64,000 nt of DNA from Paramacrobiotus metropolitanus. Its lineage: Eukaryota > Tardigrada > Eutardigrada > Parachela > Macrobiotidae. Location: the NCBI RefSeq assembly GCF_019649055.1, contig NW_026570289.1, positions 62,001-126,000 of the forward strand, given 5' to 3'. Shown here piece by piece: positions 24,711 to 63,787 of the stretch. Below the pieces are notes generated by a model. That model searched no databases, was not told the origin of the DNA, and worked only from the letters and a program-made list of their open reading frames with translations. Every line of letters starts with the position of its first letter. The stretch's first letter is position 1. The translations under genes and the position numbers were made by a program.

Positions 24711-26010
24711 CACTCTGCACTCCACAAGAAAATATTTTAATTAATTTGCTCAAGTATGCGATTAATAAAGGTCACACGCTGTAATTTTTTTTAAAACTGA
24801 ATTCAATTATTCAAATGTAGGTAAATTCAGGAAGGTGTTTTACGCCCGTTATCGATGTGCTTAAAATGTGAGCCTGATTCTATCAGTACGAGTACGTACT
24901 GTACCGACTGTACTGTATTTTGTCTGATGAGTGCAGTGCTTTGGAAACTGAATTTTTCAGCCTATTTTTGTCCAGTTCTGCGTACCATTCCGGAGAACGC
25001 ACACATACGACAAAATCCGCAAATTTCCTCACCTGCCACTTCTCCGATGGGTTATCCAGGGTCCAAACTCCAAAAATAAAACGGATATCGGTACTATAGT
25101 GACAGTACAGTACAGTAAATTCTGTTATGGTTTATTTGTAAGTAATTAAGCAGTTTTAAATTTTTACCATTTTACTGTGATTGCACACACTCTACCTCCT
25201 GAACTCTGCATTGATCCATTTTTGCAATTTTTGTTGATAATACTTGTTGGGAAACACTTTTGTATGGAATTTTGAAGTGTAGAGTTGGTTTAATACCGTA
25301 TGTATACAGTATTCTTGAATAAGTTCTTGTTTTTTCAGTGTCGCTTGCAGTTGCGTTGTGTATTAAGTACTTACATTCTACTTGCGGCTGTTAGTAGCTT
25401 TGATAGGTGACACAGTGTTGCCCATTGTAACTTGTTCTTGGAAGAAGTGAGAAACTGTTTCGTCGAGATTCTCTGGCGATAATCGACATTTGGCCAAACT
25501 ACATTGCAGCCATCTTGAGCTTGTTGTGAATGTCATTATTATAAATTATTCAATGTAAAACCTGGAACAGCGCGTTGGAATGGTGGATCATGCATTTTTA
25601 AAGATTAATCAGAGGACAACAGTTATTTTTAGTTGGGGTCTTTCTAGTCGCCACTTGATACTTGTGGAATCATAGCGTCGAATTTTGAACCGCTTTGATA
25701 CAAACATACGTACCGCGTCGTACGTTCATGATAGAATTTATCAGGCTGCATTATCGGAAGTTTGATGAGATAAACACAGTGTTCTTTCTATCCGATCCGT
25801 TTAATAATATTGTGGACGTAACTGCACTTCGACTGTGTACGACAGCGTTCTTCTTGTATGAGCTCTGCAGCCTTATCTGCAACATTTGCAAATTCGTTTA
25901 GACTGTCATTGGGTTTATCGGAAATTTCGTACACTAGGCTTCTCACTCGGGCTATACGCTGCCGGAATCGGAAATTCTATATAAGTCCTGTTTGAAGGCA
26001 TTATTCTGAC
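24711..26010. other. 5' flank of the ERK-like gene
   Basis: About 1.3 kb with no supported coding exon. It presumably holds the promoter and 5' UTR of the kinase gene that starts at 26011. The short open frames do not resemble anything I know. Confidence 0.4.
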
Positions 26011-28283
26011 ATGGAGACAGAGTCGGCCCCAGTTGATAATAAGATGGATGTGGAACCCCAGCTTGTTTCCGATGCAGTAGGTGAATCTAAAGTGGAAGAA
26101 GTACGCGGACAGAAGTTCGATGTGGGTCCTCGTTATTCTAATCTGCAGTACATAGGAGAGGGGGCATATGGAATGGTAGTATCCGCGTTCGACAAGGAGA
26201 CGCATGCTAAGGTGGCCATTAAGAAGATTTCCCCCTTTGAACATCAGACGTACTGCCAACGAACGCTGCGCGAAATAAAAATTCTGAGCCGTTTTCGCCA
26301 TGAAAATATAATTGACATTCGGGATGTGCTACGAGCTAGCACCATTGAGCAGATGAAGGATGTTTACATCGTACAGTGTCTGATGGAAACCGACATGTAC
26401 AAGTTGCTGAAGACGCAGCGCCTGAGCAATGATCACATCTGCTATTTCTTGTATCAAATATTAAGAGGGTTAAAATATATCCATTCCGCTAATGTCCTTC
26501 ATCGTGATTTGAAACCGAGTAATTTGCTGCTTAACACCAATTGCGATCTCAAGGTGAGGAAATCCGTGAATATCAGAGAGACGAGTGTTGTCAGTTTCCT
26601 CAAACAAGTTGCAAATAGTATACTAGTAAATCTACCGCGTTTGCAATTTTACCATAATATTATGGGTCTTTTGCAATACGGAAATTTATTGTTTAACGGT
26701 TTCACCAATTGCAATACGCCATGGCCTTTGAAAGAACGATCATTGTACATTAAGCGCACTCCATACTTTCGGTCACTCTGTGCCCCTTTATGTTCAAGTT
26801 TAATGAATTTTTATCCTTTCAGATTTGCGATTTTGGTCTGGCGAGAGTTGCTGATCCGGATCATGATCATCGAGGATTTCTTACCGAATATGTTGCCACG
26901 CGCTGGTACAGAGCGCCGGAAATAATGTTGAATTCTCGAGGTTATACGAAGTCCATCGATGTCTGGTCTGTGGGGTGTATCTTGGCAGAGATGCTATCAA
27001 ATCGTCCAATTTTTCCTGGCAAACATTGTGAGTTGTTTGAATTATGACGAATCTTGGGTGCAACAGCTATTTACAACCGGTGTCAATGGTGTAATATCTA
27101 CCTTTAAAGATCTGCTGCATAGCCTGCAGTAAAATCACTCAAGTCAGTCAAGTGTAACTGAATTGACATTTAGATCACGATTGTTGATTTTTCTTTCGGA
27201 TACATTTAACAGAAATTCCACAAGAGTCTGTGTCAGAATGTACTAGGGTAGAGTATTGCATGTGCATACATTTTTAATAAGTAGTAGGTTATCAAATATC
27301 CATTAAATCTGCGAATGCGCATTAATTTTTATTATGTTTTCAGATCTGGATCAATTAAATCACATATTGAATATTCTTGGATCACCCTCCCAGGATGACC
27401 TGCATAGTATTTACAATGAAAAGGTATGGTTATTGAACATGAGACTAGCAAAATGGCAAGCGTCCAGTACGAAATGCTTCTTTTGGAATATTGCACGGTA
27501 TTCTACGTATTCATTTATGTTGATAATATCATATGGTAATAATAGTTTGAGTATTGTGAGCGCTGTGTTATTAGCCTGTTGTTATATTATTATACCGAAT
27601 TCTGACGCGAAGAAATTTGAATTATTTTTCGCTGTTATAACAGATCATCATATTTTTGACCGAAGCGAAGGGAAGGTACTCTACTCTGTGTTCACGACAC
27701 TTTTGTCGTTCGTGCACTCAAATGCTTAAAAATAATGAAAGTAGTTTTTAGAAATGTAAAATATATAAAAAACTAAACAGTGAAACAAAACAGAACAATA
27801 AATAAAAAGCAAACTAGTGAAAACCTTTTAACACTCGAAATTTTGGAACTTGAGTTTCCCGCTTCGGCCTTTTAGTGCTATCAGCTGCGGTGCCCTTCGC
27901 TGGTAGAAAACTTAGGTAGAAAATAGAGTCATTCCATAAAAATAATTGAGTCTATACCATTTTTTTGTGTAAAGGCTCGAGGATACCTGGAGTCTCTTCC
28001 GATTAAAACAAAGCAGGCCTGGGCGCGATTGTTTCCCGCTGCGGATGCCAAAGCATTGGATCTTTTAGAACAGATGTTGGCTTTCAATCCCAGCAAGCGT
28101 GTCACCGTGGAAGACGCACTGAAGCATCCGTACTTGGAACTGTATTACGATCCAATGGATGAACCGGTGGCGGAAGAGCCGTTTACCTTTGAAATGGAAC
28201 TGGATGACCTGCCAAAAGAACGGCTCAAGGAAATGATTTGGGATGAAACGATCACGTTGAAAAGGAGAATGGGATTGTTATAA
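26011..28283 (+). CDS. MAPK1: ERK-type mitogen-activated protein kinase
   Basis: ERK1/2 is the terminal kinase of the Ras-Raf-MEK cascade and phosphorylates Ser/Thr-Pro sites in cytoplasm and nucleus. Four exons join in phase: 26011-26553, 26823-27027, 27344-27423 and 27975-28283, giving 378 residues (usual 350-370). The glycine loop is [13 protein letters not shown] and the catalytic lysine lies in [11 protein letters not shown]. The catalytic loop is HRDLKPSN. Exon 2 opens with CDFGLARV and carries the dual-phosphorylation motif TEY, followed by [13 protein letters not shown]. The P+1 and docking regions, and the C-terminal [12 protein letters not shown] segment, are all present. The first 35 or so residues are an acidic extension not conserved in the family. 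The exon 3-4 intron is 551 bases. The sequence supports a functional ERK orthologue. Confidence 0.95.
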
Positions 28284-40961: not shown

Positions 40962-42434
40962 ATGTCTCGAACAATTCGTATGATTGTATGGCAGCTCTTT
41001 CGACTGGCTACCGTGGAACAGGGCGACAGCTACGTCTCGCGCCGGGAGGCGTTAGCCCGGGTTCGCGAGCGAGCTGGCAAGAAAATTACTCGGGAGTCTC
41101 TGTATAAAGCTCTTAAGGCGCTCTTTCCGTTGGTATTCAGGGGAGATGCTACGAAATATCTGGAAGGTGGACACCCACGTAGAATCAGACGTCTTGTTGT
41201 TCGTACGCCGCACAGATATGCACGGCCAGTTAACCCGCCAAAGGTAAGGTTCTTTTAAGACTTTAATCGCCCTTTTTGAAAGCGGAAATTCTAGGTTGTT
41301 TACTTAGCTGGTTTTTATGTTACACTATTTTTAGAATAAACATAATTTAATTATTCTTTTTGTGAGAGCAGTGTTGAGTAATATTGTTCGTAGGTGTATC
41401 AACCGCTGCCTGCCCCATCATTGCCATCGGAATATCAGCCGTTGCCTCTCGCACCATCACCGTCGCCAGATCAACCGCTGCCTCTCCCACCATCACCATT
41501 ACCTTCGGCATATGAACCGCTACCTCTTCCCCCATCACCATCGCCATCGGTGGAAGAGATCTGGTGTTCCTTTCCCCTTGTCCGCGCTCAGCCGGTGGCT
41601 GCCACGTCGGCTTCGACACCGGCAGATCACAGCCTTCACCCGGAGACCGTGGCAACCACGTCGGCTTCCACGCCGGCTGACTGCGATCCGCTCCCGGAAC
41701 CCGTGGCAACCACGTCGGCTTCCACGCCGGCTGACTGCGATCCGCTCCCGGAACCCGTGGCAACCACGTCGGCTTCCACGCCGGCTGACTGCGATCAGCT
41801 TCCGGAACCCGTGGCGTCTACGTCGCACTCCACCCCGGCTGACCACAATCTGCACCCGGAGCCCATGGAGTCACGCTCAAGCCCGACACCGTCCACTCCG
41901 AGTCGATCGCGATGGATGGACTGGGAATGGCAGCATTGGACAAGCCTTATCCGGCGATCGTTCTCCTTGTCGCCAGAGTACCAACCACAGCCCCCCGTGG
42001 TAGATTCGCCTGACCGTACAGCAAATTTGCCTGACCATCCAGCCCGCCGCATCCGTCCAGACCGCCACCGTGTCCGTGTTGAGCGCCGCCGCCCCCGTCC
42101 TGAGCGCCGCCGCCTCCGTCCAGCCCCTTCCCCCGACCGTCCGCGCGCCGAGCCGGAAGTTCGTGCTTCGCCGCCAGTGCAGCCAGTCCGTGCTTCGCCG
42201 CCAGTGCAGCAATTCCGTGGTCAAAACAACGTGGCCGCTTGCGCCGTTTACACTTGCAACCTGGGTGAGATTCTGGCAGAGAATGGTCATCTCGCCGCAC
42301 TGATTTGTGGCCATGTGTACTGCGAGAATTGCATTAGTCAAATACCTAAGAAACCGGGTAAACGTAACCCGGAATGCCCGGCTTGCAGTCGGGTGTTCCT
42401 TAAAAGATCCTGTCGACGACTGTTTATCAATTAA
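40962..42434 (+). CDS. RNF4-like RING-finger protein with a novel N-terminal domain
   Basis: Two exons, 40962-41243 and 41394-42434, join in phase 0 at gtaagg...gtag and encode 440 residues. The C-terminus (about 377-440) is a RING closest to the SUMO-targeted ubiquitin ligase RNF4: CGHVYCENC, then CPACSRVF, and a basic tail KRSCRRLFIN resembling the end of RNF4. The first cysteine pair is C-x4-C instead of C-x2-C. Residues 1-94 form a compact basic, helical region (VSRREALARVRERAGKK, ESLYKALKALFPLVFRG) that might be a winged helix; I know no match. A proline-rich part with YQPLP repeats follows. Five 18-residue repeats come next (41595-41864), then an Arg/Pro-rich linker. The gene is clearly GC-richer than its surroundings. 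Function is inferred: E3 ubiquitin ligase, probably nuclear. Confidence 0.8.
41595..41864. repeat. Five in-frame 54-base repeats in the RING gene
   Basis: The units translate as VATTSASTPADCDPLPEP with variations. The central copies are nearly identical at nucleotide level and the outer ones are diverged, as expected for a minisatellite that expands from the middle. Length variation between individuals is likely. Confidence 0.9.
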
Positions 42435-44169
42435 AATTGTTCGGTTTCAAGGTTTTCTGGTTTGCTTGTTGGTGTGTGTCTTCCTTTTTTTGTTTTAAAA
42501 TTCCTTAATAACATTTCGGTTTCAATATTCTTTTTGTTTTGTAAAAACAGCGCAGCGGAGCTGTAGAAAAATGCGCCCCCCATTTATTGTTTATGATCAC
42601 TAATAAATCATTTGCCCATCAGCCTTACGTCAGTTATGTAACTAACGACATTGAAACGATACAATATATATATAAAAGTGTAGCACAGTATCGACCATAA
42701 AAACAGTTTAACACAAAAATTACGCACTCTCCTGTGTACTACCAAAAGAAATCACCCCATCAGCGATGGACAAAAACTATTAAGAAACCGATATATTTTA
42801 CGGTATGTCATATAATTCCAAAAATACATCACTACAATGGCGCGCCGGTTAGTTTAACGCGGCCGTTATCATGCTTGTACGTAGTATCAAGAAAAAAGTC
42901 AGAAGAAATCAAAGAATCTTGTCATAGGTCGATCGGCATTCTATGACTGCCTACATTTTTTTTTACAGTTTTGAACACCCGAGAGTGTTTGTGCAGTGTA
43001 CGAGTACATGAAAATACAATAAGGTGAATATAACTGTTGATACTTATATTATCTGTATGTAATTATTATTGTGCAGATATCATACCTATTTTTCACTATG
43101 AACAAACCAGATTGCGTGTACACACTGAAGTACCTCAATAAATCCAGTAGTATATGTTTTCACATGTTTACTCAAAAATACGATACCAAATATGATTGTG
43201 ATGAAGGATAACACATCACATTATAATAGAATAACTCACTATTTGTAATGGACAATCACGCTGCGCAGCAAATGCATCACATTACAATAACTGAACTCAG
43301 CATATGTAATGGATACGTACACTGTGCAGCAGGTTTATGTTTCATAGCGGTTGCTGGTTTTGTGTCACAGCGAGTATACGTATTACGTTATCTGTGCTAA
43401 ATAAAACCTGTGCTGTAATCAGTGCATCCAACGGTTGTTAGTGCGATATGACGACTAGTTCTGAGACGCAGCGCCGATGTATACAGCAGTTGTGCGTGCG
43501 GATTCGACGCCACGGCACAGTTTGAGATTGTGTCGCGTCGCTCACAGTGGGGAAGCAGAGCATCAAGCGACCAGTTAAGGTCATTAAGTTCTCATATACG
43601 TGCGTTTATGGGACTCACACTGTCTTCCAGCCGCAGCCTGCACTAATTACGGAGCGGTAATAGGTGATCGGTTTACTTTATGTGATGCAAACTAGCTGTG
43701 ACGCTAGATAATTTCATCTGATATTTTAACATTTAGTAATGGATTACTATATCCCGGCTCTCAATCAAGGTCGGATCAGTCAAAAAATCACTGCGAGGTA
43801 TTCAATAACCGTGTTGCTACTCTCCCGCGATGCATTTACCGTGATGACTGCAGCGTGGCTGCTCAGTGCACTAACTGTCTAGTGCAGTAATAAAAGACAA
43901 ATCGAGTACATATTTTTTCCTTCAATTGTCAACAGCACACTCGCTAATGCGGTGTGATTTCGGCTCTACTGTGTCATAAACTGAACCGCGAAAGCACCGC
44001 GGTCTGTGCTCTTTCTACTTCTACAATATACGGTACACGAAACGAAAGCAAACCTCCACCGGGTGGCAAGGCGGTTGTCAAGAAGGGCACAGTCAACGGG
44101 CACTGCGTGACGGCTTCAACACTGCGTCAACATCAGCGAATGCCGAATCAACTACGGCCGCTGCGTGCC
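42435..44169. other. Spacer DNA downstream of the RING gene
   Basis: No gene is supported. A TATA-like atatatataaaag lies near 42666-42678. Short diverged repeats around 43195-43335 (cacatcacattata and gtaatgga words) are visible. Confidence 0.4.
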
Positions 44170-53407: not shown

Positions 53408-54330
53408 TTAACAGAACGAACGCAGCCTGGCCCGCGCAGCTTCCCGAAAATTTTTGACCGCCAATATAAACAGAAATGGATCCAGAATTCTCTGTATCAA
53501 ATGAGGAAATCCCCTATCGTATGCAGCAGCGGCAGTTCCACATTTATAAACTGTAACGCTATCCAGTAGATCTTGTTAGGTGTCCAACATATGAGAATGC
53601 TCATCGTAAGCACCGACAAAATCCGAAAGCCGCGATGACCTTTTTTTAACGCAGTCCCTTCCTGTCTTCCGCTGTTGGAAGCAACACTTCTGTTGCTCGC
53701 CACTCGCCCGGAATATTTCCGTCGAAGCAGTAAGCAGGGATATGACAATAATATTATTGCCATGGGAGCCACAAAGATGCACACTTCGATGAATTGTGAA
53801 TATATCGGCTGAGCATCGACCGCCACACTGCAATCCGTGGCTACTTGCATATTTGAACGATGGTAAATCAGATCTGTCATCAGGAACGGACAAATTAACA
53901 GATGACAGTACACAACGACAATAAAACAGAGGATTACTGCGATTTTCCCGGAATGATGGCTGCGATAATTAACAGGAAACGTGGTCGCCCAGAGGCGGTT
54001 AAGGGTGATCATCAGGTGAGCGTGGTCGACAGCAGCACCGCCCAAATACAGCATGTACAGTTGTATACCGCACACGAAGGATGTGAAGTACCATCGCTGC
54101 GCAATGTACTGTAGGAGATTTATAAGGTCGGCTATCGTTTCGAAGATGTTAGCACAGAGAAGAGCGATTAAATACACACCAAAAGATGACTGCAGTGAGC
54201 GGCTGGTGGCAAAAAGATTCAGCACAAAGCCGTTAATGAGGATTGTTGTTATTATTATAAACAAGAACACTGGTAATAATGTCGTTGATCCGTTCCATTC
54301 GTGAGAAATTTCACTGGAATTGTTAGCCAA
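53408..54330 (-). CDS. Rhodopsin-like 7TM receptor with a single frameshift in TM7
   Basis: The main frame (54330-53497) starts MANNSSEISHEWNGS, with N-glycosylation motifs NSS and NGS, and continues through six clear membrane segments. TM1 carries the GFVLNLF motif. The TM3 start has a cysteine (FVCGIQLYML) that can pair with the one in ATDCSVAVD. The DRY box is replaced by LNRLWATTFP. TM6 has ICWTPNKIYW. In TM7 the frame stops after IGDFLI. The adjacent frame continues at once with QRILDPFLFILAVKNF, which contains the expected DPxxF (NPxxY-like) motif and ends at 53408. One missing or extra base explains this. It is either a recent pseudogene or a sequence error. The ligand is unknown. Confidence 0.8.
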
Positions 54331-55284
54331 AATAATTCGGAAAAAAAAGGTGAAAGGATTGCGCAGCCAGGAAGATGCTCAATTTTGCTACCGCAAATGA
54401 CTGAGGTATTTCTGTCGTCTGCAGATCAAACCTTACGGTGATGGGTACCCGATGGCAGAATGGCAGCGGATCTTTTATAATAATTGTTGCGAATTGCATA
54501 TACTAGTATACTCCACAAAAAAAGGTAGTTCTTATGGCCGACCAGATGAAATACAGTAGTCTTCCGATGATATAAGCAATATGGTGTCAATGTGTCGTTG
54601 AAATTCGATCATCCCGCCTATTTACCAAATTATGGCATTGACATCACTCCTGTCCGACTTTCTTCAGCCTGCGCGAAGTCTCTGGGCGGATATTAATCGT
54701 TTCATGTTTCCAAGTATAAGGTTTCAAAAATAATGTGGCTAATCTTTGTCCCGAATTTATCTGCAAATTAATCAAGCTGGGATACAAAGCAGCGTCTTGC
54801 TAGACCATAATTAATAGGGTTCTGTCCTGACTGAATGTGTACGGAGGGAAGCAGGACGGTCGCTGTTTCCGCTTGGACATTGTAGAGGTGTTCAGTGTAA
54901 AGGTCGTAGCGGGATGTAAAAAATGTCAAAGAACCGTTTCTCCCAGAACGTTTATTCTGCGATTTTATTTAGGGTTTTCATTGAAGTTTTTGCATCGGGA
55001 AATCGGGCGTCGTTTCTTTTTATTGAACAAGAGACAAATAATTTTTGATATTGCACTGCTAGTTTTGTTAAAACAATCTGAAGGAAAACCACACAAAAAA
55101 TTCGTTATTAGCGTGTTAATGGGGGGCATACGATCAGCTATCTGTTCGGGAATTTGACAGCAATATATTGCCTATACTAAAGTAACGTTTGTTCTTCGTT
55201 GGCGTTTATTTTAAACCGTTCGCCGGCATTCGACAAAACCGTCTGTAGGTCCAATAAAAATTTTGTCGTAAATTGTGCACGGCT
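54331..55284. other. Intergenic region, no gene recognised
   Basis: The region probably includes the promoter of the minus-strand receptor. A plus-strand frame of 106 codons at 54837-55157 has no recognisable domain. Confidence 0.4.
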
Positions 55285-55827
55285 CAGTTATTTCGATACA
55301 CTTGCCACAGACGCCGTTTTCGGAATGCTGTGCTCGCCGCACTGCACCTTGCTGACAGCCACCACAATTTAGTTGTTATAGTGTTAAACTTTCCGAGGGC
55401 TCTCATTACCGGATTGTAGAAGGCCGCTTTGCTCCCACCTCCCGGCAGCAGCGCTCGGTTGAAATTCAAAGGGGTTTTCATTTTCTTCGTCAGAAAGAAA
55501 GAAGATGGCGCAGGTGTTGCGCTTCTTTCTCGGTTGAGCGGGATCCGCTAAATAAAATTGATTGTGTATGTAATGAGTACAGTTATGAAAACATCTGATC
55601 AGCAGAAATATTTGTTTGAATTATTTAAGTGAGATCAGTTAACTGAAAGAAACGTAGAACTATGGAAAAAATTATGCAAAACGTCTAGCAGGTTTTTAGT
55701 AGAAACGATTACAAAATGAATAGCGTGCGTCTTTTTTTATGTTTTAAGACTTACGTTTTTTGTTGGCCGGATTTTGCCCCTTCACTTCCGTCGACCTAGA
55801 CGAGTTCTTTTCTACTGACTCTGCGCA
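55285..55827 (-). pseudogene. Expansin-like (double-psi beta-barrel) gene relic with propeptide exon
   Basis: Two exons are visible. The first, 55827-55755, is 73 bases, exactly the length and phase of exon 2 of the copy at 59815-60800. It reads as an open SVEKNSSRSTEVKGQ-type segment. The second, from 55547 down, begins DPAQPRKKRN like that copy, then loses frame. Later blocks SKAAFYNP, and SKVQCGEH in another frame, align with KATFYTP and SKVQYG. No signal-peptide exon and no intact barrel remain. Confidence 0.75.
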
Positions 55828-55939
55828 CTAGAAATCAAAATGTCACAATTCAAACAATTTTCCACAATTATTTCTCGTATTTGTACATGCCTGTAATAAA
55901 AATGCGACTGCCTAAAATTCCTGTAATTTGTGCTCGTAG

Positions 55940-56275
55940 GTTAGTGCAACGTTGCCCTTACGGTTAGTAGGCAAAGCCCGTTCTACTGTACATTCCGAGC
56001 ACTGGCGCCTGCGGAATTCCCAACACTGAGGAGATTTGGTGGTGGCCAAGCGCAGTATGGACAGCATAACAATCTGAAAAACGCACCTGTTCGCGAAAAG
56101 TGCGCCCTGATGAAATTTGGCCTCTATAAGCAAGTAAAGGTCATGGGGATTAATCGCCGTCTGCAATGTGCAAGCGGCGCCATCGGTCTCTCTCCAGCCG
56201 CCTTCGAATAGCTGGCTTTCAAAGACCGGGATTAGATTCGTGTCACCTGGATCAACATCAGTACTGAATCGGCTG
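55940..56275 (+). pseudogene. Expansin-like gene relic on the plus strand
   Basis: Read on the plus strand in shifting frames, it contains AQYGQHNNLKNAPVREKCAL, YKQVKV and LQCASGAIGLSPAAFE. These are close to AQYGQHGNPNNAPVCGKCAL, YKQVKV and LQCASGAIDLSPAAFE of the clean gene at 63416-63787. Frameshifts and stops (for example right after SPAAFE) rule out a product. Opposite orientation to the three-exon copies shows local inversion or inverted duplication. Confidence 0.85.
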
Positions 56276-56359
56276 TAACTGGCCAGCCACATTCTTCCGA
56301 TGGGTATTTAATCGTTATGGTTGTTCAGAAATCCGTAAGATACTATTATAATACATCAT

Positions 56360-58960
56360 CTAGAAAACCAAAAACAGTTCATCAAGGGAGCGACTATACT
56401 CAACTGTACCAAGAACACAGGCAGCATTGCCCCGCTGAATTTCTAAACTGCAACGCTGCAATAAAAACTGTTTCGCACGGATTTCTCCAGTCTGCTCCCG
56501 GATACGTTTGGCCAGGTCCGAAATAAAACCTTGAGTACTCGGGCCACAACCACCAAAAGTTTCGAAAGCCAAAGGCTGGACAATGTACCGATCTCTCAAC
56601 TTCTCATACTTTCCCAGTTTTCGAATCTCAGCGGCTTCCGCAGCTGCGCCAGGGTGATCAGAAGTTTGACCGATATAGGTTGCCGCAAGCGTGTTAGCTA
56701 CAGTGACATCCCACACTAAAGATTTTCCATATTGCCAAGGATACAAAGTCATGCCATCCGGCCGCTTTCCAGTTTCCCTATCAAAACCAGGAGGTTCCAA
56801 GATGGCGGATATTTTTGCTGATCCGAAAGCCCGCTGAATTATATTGTTAAGCGCGCTGTGGCGCCGCAGCCGTCCTGCACTTTTCTTACAGGAAAGACCA
56901 TGATGACCGTATCTATCCACCATTTCACCACAGCGGCATTTGTGCTCATTACAAATAAAAGCACCCAAACGCAAAGCCACAGCCACTCGTAAACTCATGT
57001 CATCCAGGAGACTTCCCAAGCTGGACACAGGCAGCGCCGACAACCATGCAGATGACTCTTTCGTAGACAAGGCCAACAAGCGAGCTTTAGCAATAACGTC
57101 GGCATTTTCCACTAAGAGACGGTGCATCTTGTCGTACATCAAACCGGTCTAAGCTGGCTGCAAACGACGGCTCTGCAGAGGCGGTGGGTCTTCTCCAATT
57201 TTTTCTTGATAAACCTTGACCGCATCCTCTCGAGAGTTTTGATCTGCGTCAGGTATAATCTCATTGACCAGAGAATCTTAGCGTAACACGAAGACAGATA
57301 TGCAGGCAAAGCTATATCTTCTGCCGTGCAAAGGCCGATTACCCCATAGCGATCAGGCAAAATCGTTTGCCGCCACACAGGTTCGGACATTTCCACATTT
57401 GTTATTTCTTCTGCTCTTTTTCTGACAGTATCATCGAACTGGCGTAGTTTTTCTGGACACTTCCAACACGGGGCGCACCTAAGAGTAAACAACAATCTCG
57501 TCAGCGAAAGACTGTTTTTCAAAAGGAACAATGACTGATGCGCTGGCAACACACCAAGCAGATCAGTCAGACGCCGTATCTGACCGATCTTTCCATCTAA
57601 CACTCGCCCTATTGCCAAATCCGTCAGTGGGGCACCAAGCAGGTCCAACTGCTCCGTTGAGACGAGCTGTATCTCCGGTGCAACAGAATGGAAACTCTCC
57701 ACAACATCCAAACGTTCACTTTCTGTGCCACCAAAAACGTACAGTTCACATTTGGCCAAGTTCAGCTGCAAGCCCAATGCGGATGACTTTTCTAATACAG
57801 TTACGAAATCACCCAATACGGTATCCGGATCCCCGCCGCATGTACCATCGTCCAGAAACCAGATATTCAAGGCTGCTTGTAATTCTTTGGACAAAGTATC
57901 AGAATAGCAGAGGTCCAAGGGGATCCCCTTGCTGGATACCGTGGGCAGAGGCTATGATCTGGTCTCCACAGAACAAAGATGACGGCGTGCTGTATGCCGC
58001 AGAGATAAAGGCAAAATATTCAGGAATTACTTCGGCGACTTTTTTCAGCAACACATCTCTGCGGACAGTATTAAACGCATTAGCAAAATCAGGTTTCAAC
58101 AAAACCTGAACTTTTGTGGAGTCGCTCTGAACAAATTTTCGAGCAGCATGCACGGCCGCCTCGGCTCCTCCACGTGTACCATAACCAAGCTGCACGGGGC
58201 GAGATAGTTCTCCCATTTCATCATGAACACGACGACTAATGACTTTTCCAAAAAGCCGCCGCAAGGTGCAGCCGCATGCTACTGGACGAATTCCTCCACT
58301 CTTCTTCAAAAGTGGCGTCAACATCCCACCGAAAAACACCCTTTTAGCCGCCGGAGGTATGACACCAGTCAGAGCCAGATTGGCCAACTTGGACAAGGCC
58401 GTCAGCAGAGACTCTCCGGTTTCTCCCGGGACACTAACCATCTCCTTCAAATGCTGCGGCCGAAGACCATCTGGACCAGCTGAAGAGCCTGCAGGAAAAG
58501 ATCTAACAGCGACAAAAATCTCGTTCGGAGAGACATTGTGAGTTACAGAATTGACGTCGCAGACCGTTGTATCCACATCCGCTGGTGGATCTGGATGTTT
58601 ATGACGTAGCGCTTTAATAACGTCATCCGTCAGCGAAGCAACTGATTCTTCAGACGTCATCACTTTAACCGCACCACTGATGTCGCCATCCTGCAGTTTG
58701 GCGTTGACTAATTTGCGTAACTTTTCATCAGAGGACTTCTTCTTGCTAGCCCTGATCCTAGTAGTATTGAGCGGAGGGGAGTCTGAAGGTGTGCCGCGCA
58801 AGTTTGCCTTCACAGAAGCGGCTAAGGAAGGTCCTCGCCCAGCCTTAGCAGGAGGTGCGTGCAGATTCTCGAGCGGAAACAACAACAATTTGGCCCAAGA
58901 CTCCTCGTCATTCTTGTTACACACATCATTGACTGAAGATTCTTCCTGTTTTTCTGTCAT
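56360..58960 (-). mobile_element. Degenerate non-LTR retrotransposon: reverse transcriptase plus restriction-like endonuclease
   Basis: Three consecutive frames on the minus strand (58960-57899, 57918-57139 and 57142-56360) form one protein of about 870 residues broken by two frameshifts. Frame 1 has the RT entry FPAGSSAGPDGLRPQHL, then KPDFANAFNTVRRD and HGIQQGDPLGPLLF. Frame 2 has the catalytic FLDDGTCGGD. Frame 3 carries a zinc-binding CRCGEMVDRYGHHGLSC with RRHSALNN, then RPDGMTLYPWQYGKSLVWD. That fits a PD-(x~15)-D restriction-like endonuclease as in R2-type elements. The layout matches a family of RT genes common in cnidarians and other animals. I see no LTRs, poly-A tail or target duplication. 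Both frameshifts lie at functional positions, so this copy is dead. Confidence 0.85.
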
Positions 58961-59814
58961 CGGGGTGTTTTTGTTTGTTACTGTTCCGGTGCGTAGTCTG
59001 CGCCTTTTGACCGTTTTTGTGTGAGCGTAATTTGACTGTTGAATTATGAATCATTATGATTTCATCGTGTTCTCCTAGTCTTATGTCATAACTGATTCGA
59101 GGATTGTTACAATGCATTGTAGATAATAAATTCCGCTTGAAAATCTCCGTGTTTTCCCACGGTTTTGTGAAGTACACGCAGTGGACTAAAATATCGAATC
59201 CCAAAAAAACCTAGTCCACATAAATGGTGTCAGTATGGAGACGAGTTTATATGTACCAAATCAAGTTTAAACCGCAGAACGTACTGCAGCGGCTCTAAAC
59301 CCAACGCGTTTCGGTTTATTAGCGAGAAATCAATTCAGTATTTCATCGCGCCGTTGTACGGTAAATGAGCCCGCATTCAATATTTATTTGTCTTTTAATA
59401 CTGCCAATAATGCATTCCTGGTGAATGCAGTTCGCAGGAGAACGTATAAATTCATATTAATTTAAAGGAAGCGTTCAAGATTCAAGCTATTCAAAGGAAG
59501 CGTTCAAGATTTGTTGACGAAATCCATATTAATTTAAGCTATTTCGAAGAAAGCGTTCAAGATTTGTTGACACGACATACAACTACCAGCGCCAAATTAC
59601 AGAAAGGCGATAACATTGTTATTCAAGCGGATTTCAATCGAATGCGAATTCAGCTTAACAACCAGCTGTATGACACAATAAAGCAAATAAGGTAGAAGCA
59701 GCGGATATTGCAAAATAAAAACAAGAAAAAAATTCTTTAGAACACGACTGAGTACTCATACAAATTGTAATTAGGAAGCAAGTGAAAGACAGTCTCCAGC
59801 CAAATACAACCGGT
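58961..59814. other. Intergenic DNA with a duplicated segment and short tandem repeats
   Basis: It holds copy 1 of a direct repeat (59184-59430). It also has three repeats of ggaagcgttcaagat or aagcgttcaagattt words at about 59466-59565. No gene is supported. Confidence 0.5.
59184..59430 (+). repeat. Direct repeat copy 1, beside the expansin-like genes
   Basis: About 247 bases similar to 61943-62190, with many substitutions and small gaps. Shared blocks include aatatcgaatccc, catcgcgcc and tgccaat. Each copy lies on the 3' side of a minus-strand expansin-like gene, so the block was probably duplicated with the gene. Confidence 0.75.
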
Positions 59815-60800
59815 TCAGCACTTAACGTAGTTCCAGGTGACCAGATGTGACCCAAATCCTTGGAAGCCAGTTCTTCGAAGGCGGCCGGGGAGAGATCGAT
59901 GGCGCCGCTGGCACATCCCTCGCAGCGATCGACCACCTTGACCTTGACTTGCTTTCCGGAGTCCACGTCTTTGACCAAGGCGCACTTGCCGCAGACGGGT
60001 GCCTTGTTGGGATTCTTGTGCTATCCGTACTGCACCTTGCTGACCGCCACCACCATTTCGCTCTCAGTATTGACCTTTCCGCATGCTCCCATCGCCGGAG
60101 TATAGAACGTCGCTTTGCCCTTGAAGTTCTGGGCACCAGAGCTCGGATGCAACCGAAATGGCTTCTTATCTGTGATATCAGGAATAAGAATCTGGGCGCT
60201 CATGTTGCGCTTTTTTCTCGGTTGAGCCGGATCTAAACAAAATCGGTTTGTATGTAAGGCGTACAATTAGCTTGTACCCGTCTAATCACCATAATATTCG
60301 TTCAAATTGTTTAAATTAACCTAACCAATGAAAAAATGATTGTGAAGTGTAGGAAAATAGCACAAAACATTAAGCAGATTTTTAGTGGAAGCGTCAACAA
60401 GATTCTGTAGGAAGAGTGGCGATTCTTCATTCTAATCGATTGCATTTAATAGTCCGTTCCCGTTATAACATTTTTGTGGCTAACAGACAACACAGGTGCA
60501 AAATCAGTTCTTGTTAATGCGTATTGCTATATTAGCAACAATGTCACCACGGTGACGTTTGAATATGATTTGGCTACTCTTACCGGTTTCAGGCGGAGTT
60601 TTCACGTTTTCTTCCATCAGTATAGATGATGACCCCTTCTCTACCAGCATGGCACCCTGGAAAGCAAGGCGACACAATTAAAGGAGTTTCCAAAATTAGT
60701 AAGTGTATCTTTACCGCGACTGCATTTAGAATGTGTACTTTGTACTTACGGAAAAAGCCAGAAGGGCAGCCACAAGCAGCAATAGTACGAAAACGTTCAT
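59815..60800 (-). pseudogene. Three-exon expansin-like secreted protein gene, broken by a nonsense codon and an indel
   Basis: Exon 1 (60800-60750) encodes the signal peptide MNVFVLLLLVAALLAFS. Exon 2 (60656-60584, 73 bases) encodes an acidic propeptide. Exon 3 (60232-59815) opens DPAQPRKKRN, with a furin-like RKKR site, and then the double-psi beta-barrel: KGKATFYTPAMGACGKVNT, APVCGKCALV, VVDRCEGCASGAIDLSP. Phases agree at both junctions. In exon 3 the glutamine after QYG in the clean paralogue is TAG here (60021-60023), in frame. A missing base near 59842 then shifts the last residues (VTWNYVKC). With these two lesions it is probably a recent pseudogene. The family includes expansins, RlpA and barwin-like proteins, which act on or bind polysaccharide. 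Confidence 0.85.
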
Positions 60801-61589
60801 GATGGCGGATTTGAAAAGGTCAAGAGAGAAATAAATATTTATTAAAGGGTAGTCTTAAAAATGTTGTTCATTTGAAGCATCCAAAGGCTTTTATAGGAAT
60901 TTCTGCACCGCTGCTCTTTATTTCTAAGGAAAGATGTTTAAATTGTGGGGGCTATTAGGCTTACTTTTAAAAAAATTCACAGAAATTTTTTAGTGATTTT
61001 GTGGGAATCGAAGTTTTTCCGTTGAATGGTTGAGACAACTGTAAGTGCTTCCCGGGTATCGGATGGGCCATCGCCGGCGCTTCGCGTATCCACTTAAAAA
61101 CTGCGTCGGCAGCTACAGGGAATTCAGCATTAGACACGCGCGCGCGTTTAACATAGTCGGAAAATATGCGCAGAAGTAATGTGCATGTGCCTATGCAGAC
61201 AGTGGCGACAAACTGCAACGTCAAGCACAACGGAAACCGGTGTATGCGTGAGGCAGCTAGCAACAGCAGAATCCATTCGCACTTCTGGGAAGATTGGAAT
61301 CAAGTGTTTCTACAACGTAAAATCGGCGTTGTCATGACCATTTAACACAAATTGCGAAGTCCGCTTCGCGATTGCATGGCAAAGGCGGTTTGCTGGAATT
61401 AAGTTAATTTGAATCGTTCTAGGAATTTGAATGCCGTATTTGCAACACACTGGGTTTTAAAATATACTGTTTAATTCTAGATCCTTTCGTTTGCAGAAGT
61501 AAGAAAATGTTCTGCACAAATAAAAATTGATTGTGTACTTCTTCAAACCTTTCCCGCTTTTCCGATAAAATGACCGCTCGGTCTCTTTT

Positions 61590-61700
61590 TAGAAAGTATT
61601 ACTGTGCTGATAGGTTCATGCAACGTTGTCTTCAGTATACAAAGCAAAGCAACGTTCTACATTCCGAGGATTGGCGTCCGTGCCGGAAGCTTCCTGCATG
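61590..61700 (+). pseudogene. 5' fragment of an expansin-like gene
   Basis: The plus-strand translation VLIGSCNVVFSIQSKATFYI followed by PRIGVRAGSF aligns with VLVCSCSVTFCIQGKATFYI and PSTGACG of the clean gene, so it covers the signal peptide and the first strand. Similarity ends there and the rest of the barrel is missing. Confidence 0.8.
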
Positions 61701-61942
61701 ATAGCGGAATTCTGACAGATGATATGAGAAGAAACCGGCGAAAAATGAGCCACGGAATATGTATCTTCGCCAGCGGATCAGCATTTTGAAATCCAACGAG
61801 GAAAGGCGACATCATGAGGACAGCGCCGGTGGAAGCAAATTTAGATCAAATTTTATCTGTGATTAGGCCGCCTCTGTAATAAGTGACTGTTTTGTAAGTT
61901 ATCGTAAAAGTTTTGGTGAAAGAAGTATTAAGCTTACCACCA

Positions 61943-62190
61943 GACTGAAATATCGAATCCCTACGTACAAAACCTAGTCCGTACAAATGGGTTTTCGTAA
62001 GGAGACAAGTTGATCTGTGCATCAAGTTTCAAACCACAGATATGTGCTGCATCTGCTATAAACCTAACGAATTTCGGTATATTTTCAAGAAATCAGCATT
62101 TTATCGCGCCATTTTACGGTATATGAGCCCACACTCAAAAGTTATTTGGTTATTAATATTGCCAATTAAATGCATTAATAGTGAATGCAG
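61943..62190 (+). repeat. Direct repeat copy 2, beside the expansin-like genes
   Basis: Partner of 59184-59430 at a spacing of about 2.76 kb. It ends in the same gtgaatgcag. Confidence 0.75.
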
Positions 62191-63415
62191 TATAGGTGTA
62201 GGTGTAGATAGTACAGATACAGTATTTGTTTGCAGGTGTAATAGTTTGCAGGTGTAGGTAGTACAGTATTTGTTTGCAGGTGTATTATATGGGCGCAAGC
62301 ATGCATCGCGCTGGTTATGCACAGATATGTAGTTTTGTATCGTGAGGCTCGTAATTACGCTAGTTTTCCATGTTTACATGCATCGTTTTTTAAGAGTTTT
62401 TTTTGAATGACCAACCAGAATTAACTGTTATGAACCAAAACTGTCAGTCAGGTGCATAATTATAAGAGTTTATTTCCAAAGTATTTCGTGAAACATGAAA
62501 TCAGTAGCAATGAATTAATTAAAATGATGAATGTTACTTATGCCGAGAAAATTAAAGCAGTTAAAACAACTGAAAACTTCGAGCGGTAATTCTCTTTTAC
62601 TATCCAGATTCCAGTAAAGCGTACCGTAATTACGGCACAGGTACATACTTATAAGTATATTTATGTTATACTTACAAATATTTCGCAGTTTAATCTTCTT
62701 GTCATCACTTAAACACGTGTTAAAGAAACAGTTACAAAAACAACAGCTCGTTAAACATTTCCGCTTACAAGTACTTATACTTATAAGTTACAACCACAGT
62801 CTCTCTGGGCTCCCAGGCAGTATGGCCAAACCCCCTTGTGCGCGGTTATATTTTGACTTGTGGTTTTTCAGTTTTAAGCCGTTATTCCTTGTTGAAAATT
62901 TAAGTTTTAAATTAAATATCCGCTTAAATGCGTCACAAATTCCAAGAAAAAACAGTTTGTTTTCTAGACCGTTTTAAAACTTCTGTTGCTAATATTCGTT
63001 AATTCGGTATAAGTAGAAACAAAAAATGGTTCTGCCTGAGTTCCAGTTCAACCAATTTTACGGGTGTTCAACAACTGTTTTATTTCTCGCAATAAACCGG
63101 TTGCAGATTCGAAATCACCGAATTTTTCTGATTCAGAATCCAAACCGACTGATAGCCGTATCCTAAAAGTCCCTTCTAGCCGGGAGCCCCGATGTTAAAC
63201 TGTATTGTACAGGGAGCACATAGGGCGGATTTTTCGTAGTAAGAAGCTTAAACGAAGGCAGCATAATGACATCACACTGATTCGAAACCCAACAATCAAA
63301 TCACAATCACAGTTAAGAAAAGTAAACTGACGGAGGCTGCGCACCAGAACAGTACAAACAGGGAACCTCCGACAGCCGGAAATGGGCAAGACGTGGCGGG
63401 CAGTTGGCAGCTGAA

Positions 63416-63787
63416 TCAGCACTTGACGTAGTGCCAGCTGATATGAATATAATCCAGATCCCTGGCAGCCAGCTTCTCGAAGGCGGCCGGAGACAGATCG
63501 ATGGCGCCGCTAGCACATTGCAGACAGCGATCCACCACCCTGACTTTTACTTGTTTATAGGGGCCAAATTTCACCAGGGCACACTTCCCGCAAACGGGTG
63601 CGTTGTTGGGATTGCCGTGCTGTCCATACTGCGCTGGACTGATGGCCATCACCAGTTCCTCTTCAGTGTTGACCATTCCGCAGGCGCCAGTGCTCGGAAT
63701 GTAAAACGTCGCTTTGCCCTGGATGCAAAAGGTAACGCTGCATGAACATACGAGCACAAGAATACCAAAAAGCGTTCGAGCGGACAT
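63416..63787 (-). CDS. Small secreted expansin-like / RlpA-like double-psi beta-barrel protein
   Basis: An uninterrupted frame of 123 residues. I chose the Met at 63787 because it directly begins a signal peptide (MSARTLFGILVLVCSCSVTF), while the upstream in-frame Met at 63916 adds a non-hydrophobic extension. The mature part is a single six-cysteine domain: GKATFYIPSTGACG, NAPVCGKCALV, VVDRCLQCASGAIDLSPAAF and a C-terminal ISWHYVKC. The VVDRC...DLSPAAF block with its aspartates is typical of barwin/expansin-type and fungal or bacterial small secreted barrel proteins. No second (carbohydrate-binding) expansin domain is present. Unlike the copy at 59815-60800 there is no propeptide or intron in the coding part. 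The role is unknown: polysaccharide loosening, inhibitor or binding protein are all possible. It is the only clean copy among five. Confidence 0.85.
   Translation of the reverse strand: MSARTLFGILVLVCSCSVTFCIQGKATFYIPSTGACGMVNTEEELVMAISPAQYGQHGNPNNAPVCGKCALVKFGPYKQVKVRVVDRCLQCASGAIDLSPAAFEKLAARDLDYIHISWHYVKC

Follow-up and report, generated by a model that had tools for sequence, protein, structure and literature searches.

The window, a stretch of 64,000 nucleotides of the Paramacrobiotus metropolitanus genome (C69:62001-126000), carries between 55.3 and 63.8 kb five copies of one gene family, hereafter family A, in the orientations -, +, -, +, -. One of them (copy e) is a clean gene, and the other four (copies a-d) are broken copies or fragments:

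Copy a, 55299-55642, minus strand: relic of a three-exon subtype, with the end of intron 2 and exon 3.
Copy b, 55928-56290, plus strand: relic with frame changes.
Copy c, predicted exon 3, 59815-60232, minus strand: RKKR motif and DPBB domain.
Copy c, predicted exon 2, 60584-60656, minus strand: short segment; acceptor TTTCCAG; donor GTAAGA; phase 1.
Copy c, predicted exon 1, 60750-60800, minus strand: leader; donor GTAAGT; phase 0.
Copy d, 61568-61676, plus strand: fragment limited to the 5' part, with the leader and the first strand.
Copy e, 63416-63787, minus strand: intact intronless gene of 123 aa, with a hydrophobic leader and one DPBB domain.

In searches of the window with 18 family-A protein queries, the best matches were 63787-63419 for copy e (E 8e-84), 60134-59850 for copy c (E 2e-52), 55927-56250 for copy b (E 4e-26) and 61589-61675 for copy d (E 5e-7). 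Copy a was the weakest at the protein level (55454-55380, E 4e-4), and its DNA-level match was much stronger. Twenty shuffled versions of the window (single-base shuffling) gave protein E values no lower than 0.024, against which all five copies reported in mixed orientations by the initial annotation were recovered. At the DNA level, copy e is 77% identical to copy b (374 aligned columns, E 5e-75) and 75% identical to copy d (109 bases, E 6e-17). Copy a is 71% identical to copy c over 340 bases (E 2e-38) and, over 315 bases, equally 71% identical to the copy lying downstream near C69:127 kb (E 2e-44); a weaker match (E 9e-5) carries on at about 55768-55878.

The leader of copy e lies in the same frame as its DPBB domain, and this frame is uninterrupted. 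The protein matches Pfam DPBB_1 (PF03330) at 4.1e-8, with 33.8 bits for a cut-off of 28.8, and, less strongly, Barwin, also over the cut-off (1.8e-5); its best PDB match is the papain inhibitor 5ntb (2.6e-11). The single double-psi beta-barrel domain preceded by a leader, as originally described, is thus borne out. For copy c a three-exon structure is predicted, in which the leader has an exon of its own, the splice sites are GT/AG and the phases (0 and 1) are compatible. Its second half matches DPBB_1 at 1.9e-8, and the damage in exon 3 amounts to a single in-frame stop and, towards the C-terminus, a shift of frame. The introns claimed for the cluster are therefore supported for the putative a/c subtype, whereas the clean copy e has none. 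Copy c and its neighbour C69:127109 exhibit an extra segment before the DPBB domain, ending in RKKR, which we take to resemble a furin-type site; the three-exon subtype that they represent may encode a proprotein.

Searches were extended to the whole assembly of this genome (169.8 Mb, 533 contigs), in which the copy-e protein had matches at E <= 1 in 29 places, distributed over C69, C114, C38, C74, C3, C2, C157 and C137, and the DPBB_1 profile gave 24 matches, 20 of them over the cut-off. After leaving out the weak C137 match (E 0.15) as chance, one of two overlapping rows at C38:726 kb and three rows belonging to a second family (family B, see below), and after adding copy a, family A, spread over six contigs between 442 kb and 3.85 Mb in length, comprises about 25 copies. 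By reading of the frames, 15 of these are intact, eight are broken and two are neither clearly intact nor broken:

Intact, C69: 125416 (copy e), 127109, 130268, 135814.
Intact, C114: 145162, 329176, 331155, 341192, 429073.
Intact, C38: 708798, 715150.
Intact, C74: 569330, 575997.
Intact, C3: 476896, 503765.
Broken: window copies a-d, C69:141339, C38:724963, C38:726 kb, C74:574188.
Neither: C69:148902 (without an ATG at the usual place) and C2:2511324 (without an in-frame leader).

C69:127109 was scored as intact on the basis of exon 3 and of an upstream leader exon resembling that of copy c. The family-A frames stop after the DPBB domain, with no second domain, and six conserved cysteines are found in most copies. 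The C69 cluster consists of ten copies over about 32 kb, of which the window holds the left half, and five further copies lie within about 24 kb beyond the window edge. The cluster of five copies that had been described does not, therefore, end at this edge, and its characterization as mostly decaying is a local impression from the window, given that 15 of 25 copies are intact. The proposed birth-and-death duplication, on the other hand, is supported.

Judged by sequence, the DPBB genes of this genome form not one family but two. Family B comprises three intact genes on C157 (C157_135925, C157_143007 and C157_150328) and has three broken relatives, on C157, C26 and C74, the latter contig also bearing family-A genes. 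Family-A proteins are only 30-40% identical to their best family-B counterpart. In family B a phase-0 intron is read as interrupting the leader, within the putative signal peptide, and exon 1 looks, by eye, better conserved between copies than the intron. When exon 2 only was scanned with the NCBIfam equivalog model NF041659 (cysteine/serine endopeptidase inhibitor, Papain_Inhib; cut-off 150 bits), C157_135925 (151.5 bits) and C157_143007 (152.3 bits) scored over the cut-off and C157_150328 (148.7 bits) just under it. Family B is 52-58% identical to Streptomyces SPI over the domain. Its search of plasmid records by tblastn returned three matching records, one at 61% and two at 54.5%; the best is a Streptomyces anthocyanicus gene annotated as a cysteine/serine endopeptidase inhibitor (61% over 100 aa). 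Streptomyces SPI (5ntb; NF041659) has in common with both tardigrade families a single DPBB domain in a secreted protein, secretion being predicted for the tardigrade ones. Family B nevertheless differs from SPI by its intron-split leader and by extra cysteine residues.

Selection was assessed on the 18 intact genes of families A and B, which form 108 same-family pairs, 85 of them usable (dS 0 to 2). The median dN/dS is 0.29, with 79 of the 85 pairs below 0.5 and none above 1. Copy e shows values of 0.29-0.47 with its five nearest genes by dS, and the three family-B pairs show values of 0.06, 0.14 and 0.17. The intact genes are under purifying selection: they are kept, not drifting.

Family A consists of resident animal genes, as indicated by its predicted introns, its animal neighbours and its presence on several contigs. 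A CAHS query matched 20 places in the genome, the best at 65% identity (E 3e-69), which marks the genome as that of a eutardigrade, and one CAHS gene is located on C114, the contig with five family-A genes. The window also holds GPCR, kinase and KTI12 exons. The residence in the animal genome asserted by the initial annotation is in this way corroborated. Genes of bacterial appearance are a familiar pitfall of assemblies, and none of the five open frames scanned beside the family-B genes on C157 gave a Pfam match. The strain was also reared on Chlorella and a rotifer, according to the culture description in PMC8277472. Contamination by a microbe, an alga or the food rotifer is nevertheless extremely improbable in view of the six large contigs carrying family A, one of them with a CAHS gene, of the introns and animal exons, and of the broken relatives of family B found on C26 and C74. 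With no Pfam match among the five frames scanned on C157, the residence of family B rests on its intron model and on these broken copies elsewhere.

With regard to the type of protein, family A does not reach the cut-off of either relevant NCBIfam model. In the 12 of 18 family-A rows that were scanned, scores were 50.9-86.1 bits on NF041659, with all of them far short of 150, and 51.1-74.2 bits on the expansin EXLX1 model NF041144, with none over its cut-off of 100 and with matches to the first half of the profile only. Papain_Inhib outscored EXLX1 in nine of the 12 copies, EXLX1 was higher in three, and copy e showed a near tie (69.5 bits for Papain_Inhib and 69.3 for EXLX1, 0.2 bits apart). 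A profile of 14 family members, including three B rows (profile A1), matched the papain inhibitor 5ntb best among PDB sequences (5.4e-30), and none of the 16 PDB sequences that it matched bears an animal protein name. An AlphaFold model obtained from a two-row alignment was too poor to use (pLDDT 48.9).

A feature in common with SPI is an insertion before the second conserved cysteine, which is present in 17 of 18 A rows, in all three B and all three SPI rows, and in one of 18 other rows. The exact motif NPN occurs within it in 10 of 18 A rows and in every B and SPI row (3/3 each), compared with 0/18 of the others. An acidic pair matching that of expansins is also observed: its first residue (D1) is found in 16 and its second (D2) in 12 of the 18 A rows, and copy e has both. 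The D2 aspartate, which we take to be the equivalent of the presumably essential D82 of BsEXLX1, is kept in all 24 non-A rows and lost in six of the 18 A rows, among them the C2 row and the intact C38_708798, C38_715150 and C114_331155. By plain identity, every A row is nearest to a myxobacterial expansin-type row and not to SPI (18/18, 36-48%), and 11 of the 18 are nearest to the single-domain L022; this speaks against an SPI affinity of family A. On these features, family A is a single-domain DPBB family situated between SPI-type inhibitors and the DPBB domains found in microbial expansins, and it appears to lean to SPI by two measures, namely the higher Papain_Inhib score in nine of 12 copies and the shared insertion.

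Microbial relatives were also surveyed. Matches to profile A1 at E <= 1e-10 were found in 39 of 377 Myxococcota genomes. Unlike family A, with which they have the N-terminal fold in common, 12 of the 13 distinct rows read from myxobacteria are longer by 97-100 aa, as two-domain expansins would be (judged on length only), and microbial expansins exhibit no NPN insertion. A scan of genome contigs with query A2 matched 18 stretches, among which the single-domain L022 was the only relative. A C3 family-A copy matched 18 plasmid records, all below 60% identity, and no relative turned up in either of two scans of viral contigs.

The tree, which is unrooted, comprises 42 short rows: tardigrade families A and B, bacterial sequences and PDB sequences, with hardly any fungi and no animals other than the tardigrade beyond the PDB rows; L023 was left out as a duplicate of L022. 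Family B groups with the three SPI rows (100/98), beside the S. anthocyanicus gene (97/83). That A and B go back to one common origin within tardigrades was rejected on these 42 short rows with hardly any fungi (p 0.015-0.023), the p-AU being 0.0148 for A and B as one clade and 0.0225 without the C2 copy. Within the sequences compared, this demonstrates the separate descent of A and B. A clade of the three bacterial SPI that leaves B outside was not rejected (p 0.421). A horizontal origin of family B is well supported as the probable one, and its descent from within Streptomyces is favoured, though not proved.

The position of family A is less clear. It is not a single clade in the best tree, the C2 copy standing apart, but a single clade was not rejected (p 0.105), and the branch that sets family A without C2 apart has a support of only 73/19. 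One branch (95/88) separates 17 A rows, SPI, B, 9ce9, L037 and 7wvr from the expansins and C2, whereas another (90/82) separates all A rows and the expansins from SPI, B, 9ce9, L037 and 7wvr. In this unrooted tree, family A lies between SPI and the expansins. Neither A with SPI and B (p 0.088) nor A without C2 with all expansins (p 0.102) was rejected. The grouping of A with myxobacteria was rejected (p 0.042), but this says little, since two expansins nested among the myxobacterial rows were left out of that group. The horizontal origin of family A is likely but unproven on a comparison set without fungal, other animal or other tardigrade genomes, for which reason a vertical origin is possible. 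Horizontal transfer, as proposed in the initial annotation, is the likeliest origin overall and is well supported for B; with regard to both direction and donor, we infer a microbial source, which for A may be a bacterium or a fungus.

Vertical inheritance of an ordinary animal family that most lineages have lost would be compatible with this set of genomes, which contains no other animals, and the conserved splice sites of the three-exon subtype suggest a long residence. We regard this as distinctly unlikely: family B groups with Streptomyces SPI, the PDB matches of the A1 profile have no animal name, and the portions of the literature that deal with animal DPBB proteins treat them as transfers (PMC11800479; PMC2662799). 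Expansin-like wall looseners, secreted into food such as algae, fungi or bacteria, as proposed for plant-parasitic nematodes, are somewhat less improbable, although still rather doubtful. The DPBB fold, the acidic pair kept in copy e and most copies, the three copies scoring higher on EXLX1 and the near tie of copy e would suit such a function, as would a diet of Chlorella and a rotifer, given for the cultured strain in PMC8277472. The lack of a second (CBM63-like) domain, the failure of all 12 copies to pass the EXLX1 cut-off, the insertion in common with SPI and the loss of D2 in six rows, three of them intact genes, all argue against it, and according to a statement in PMC11800479 no evidence shows DPBB proteins with a single domain to loosen walls. 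The expansin label that had been given to the cluster was accordingly set aside as the primary one and is retained as a rival on account of the nearest identities and of the 90/82 branch. Secreted antimicrobial or wall-binding proteins with an immune role, either barwin/PR-4-like or peptidoglycan-binding, are an unlikely alternative in which the fast birth-and-death and the divergence would suit immune genes. Barwin is indeed over the Pfam cut-off for copy e and for two C3 copies, but its scores are lower than those of DPBB_1 in each, and Barwin/PR-4 and kiwellin are plant proteins.

The explanation that we favour, with moderate confidence in it as a whole, is that of a resident eutardigrade family A of microbial acquisition, amplified in the genome, alongside a separate SPI-type family B, both with a protease-blocking role. 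Family A would most likely have been acquired from a microbe, either a bacterium or a fungus, and would afterwards have multiplied through tandem and dispersed duplication, new copies arising while others broke. Family B would be a separate and clearer acquisition, an SPI-type inhibitor of the actinobacterial kind. The products of both families, which are predicted to be secreted, would work extracellularly as blockers of papain-like cysteine (and perhaps serine) proteases of the food, of microbes or of the animal itself. The most likely function, a secreted cysteine/serine-protease inhibitor, is firmer for B than for A; this assignment is based on the two of three B copies that pass NF041659, on the blocking of papain by RsRlpA, a fungal single-DPBB protein, reported in a section of PMC7662947, and on the statement about wall loosening in PMC11800479. 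A more tentative extension, which is possible but which we do not hold to be probable, is that two microbial DPBB genes, one of them a Streptomyces-type papain inhibitor, were captured separately and gave rise to an arsenal of some 18 intact secreted inhibitors, including a propeptide subtype with the furin-like RKKR and members whose acidic-residue loss would reflect a changed target.

Whether microbial genes have passed into tardigrades has been disputed for years, with contamination as the main issue. The family described here clearly belongs to the animal genome, exists in many copies, is under selection and has predicted introns in part of its members, and one branch has a close bacterial relative. 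None of the literature matches listed concerned tardigrade DPBB, expansin or papain-inhibitor genes, although supplementary HGT tables may list such genes, and the word 'expansin' is absent from the main texts of PMC5531438, PMC8277472 and PMC11191345. The present genes would extend SPI-type protease inhibitors to animals, no such case being among the literature matches listed. The fungal RlpA-like/DPBB_1 proteins RsRlpA and Pst-DPBB, likened by description only, are similarly small and secreted with a single DPBB domain; unlike the tardigrade proteins, these fungal proteins act on plants. The kind of event is not new, as acquired animal DPBB proteins are otherwise known from nematodes and insects: in the parts of PMC11800479 and PMC2662799 that concern them, nematode expansins, an aphid RlpA and a Bemisia EG45-like protein are likewise microbial or plant DPBB genes settled in animals. 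Those cases are of the expansin, RlpA or plant EG45 type, whereas in the tardigrade one family is of the SPI type and the amplification is strong.

The GPCR exon in the window adjoins the cluster of genes and relics for secreted single-domain double-psi beta-barrel (DPBB) proteins, and retroelement remains lie within the cluster.

25996-28280, plus strand: protein kinase exons (Pkinase, 1.8e-31 in the first exon)
53500-54378, minus strand: rhodopsin-type GPCR exon (7tm_1, 6.9e-19)
56363-59050, minus strand: retroelement remains, separating copies b and c of the cluster

The kinase looks like a MAP kinase, a name given by eye. The retroelement remains exhibit an RVT_1 profile match (5.1e-10) at 57902-59050, downstream of which open frames are present at 57142-57951 and 56363-57148, in frames other than that of the match; by eye, our guess is an element of the non-LTR type. 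In the interval from copy d to copy e there is a short tandem repeat around 'gtaggtagtacagtatttgtttgcagg' (62180-62300). Elsewhere in the window, a low-complexity repeat at 41335-42446 shows long open frames on both strands, its plus-strand reading being proline/serine-rich.

On contig C157, the stretch adjoining the genes of the second DPBB family (126000-135000) contains three open frames with a common YGC[FI] pattern. A Pfam scan of these three frames gave no match, and they possibly represent a lineage-specific family.

With regard to bacteria, a Myxococcales MAG (JANXVA010000040.1) carries a DPBB gene that encodes just the one domain and a leader resembling that of a lipoprotein. This gene scores 111 bits on the expansin model EXLX1, above the cut-off of 100 bits, despite having no second domain.
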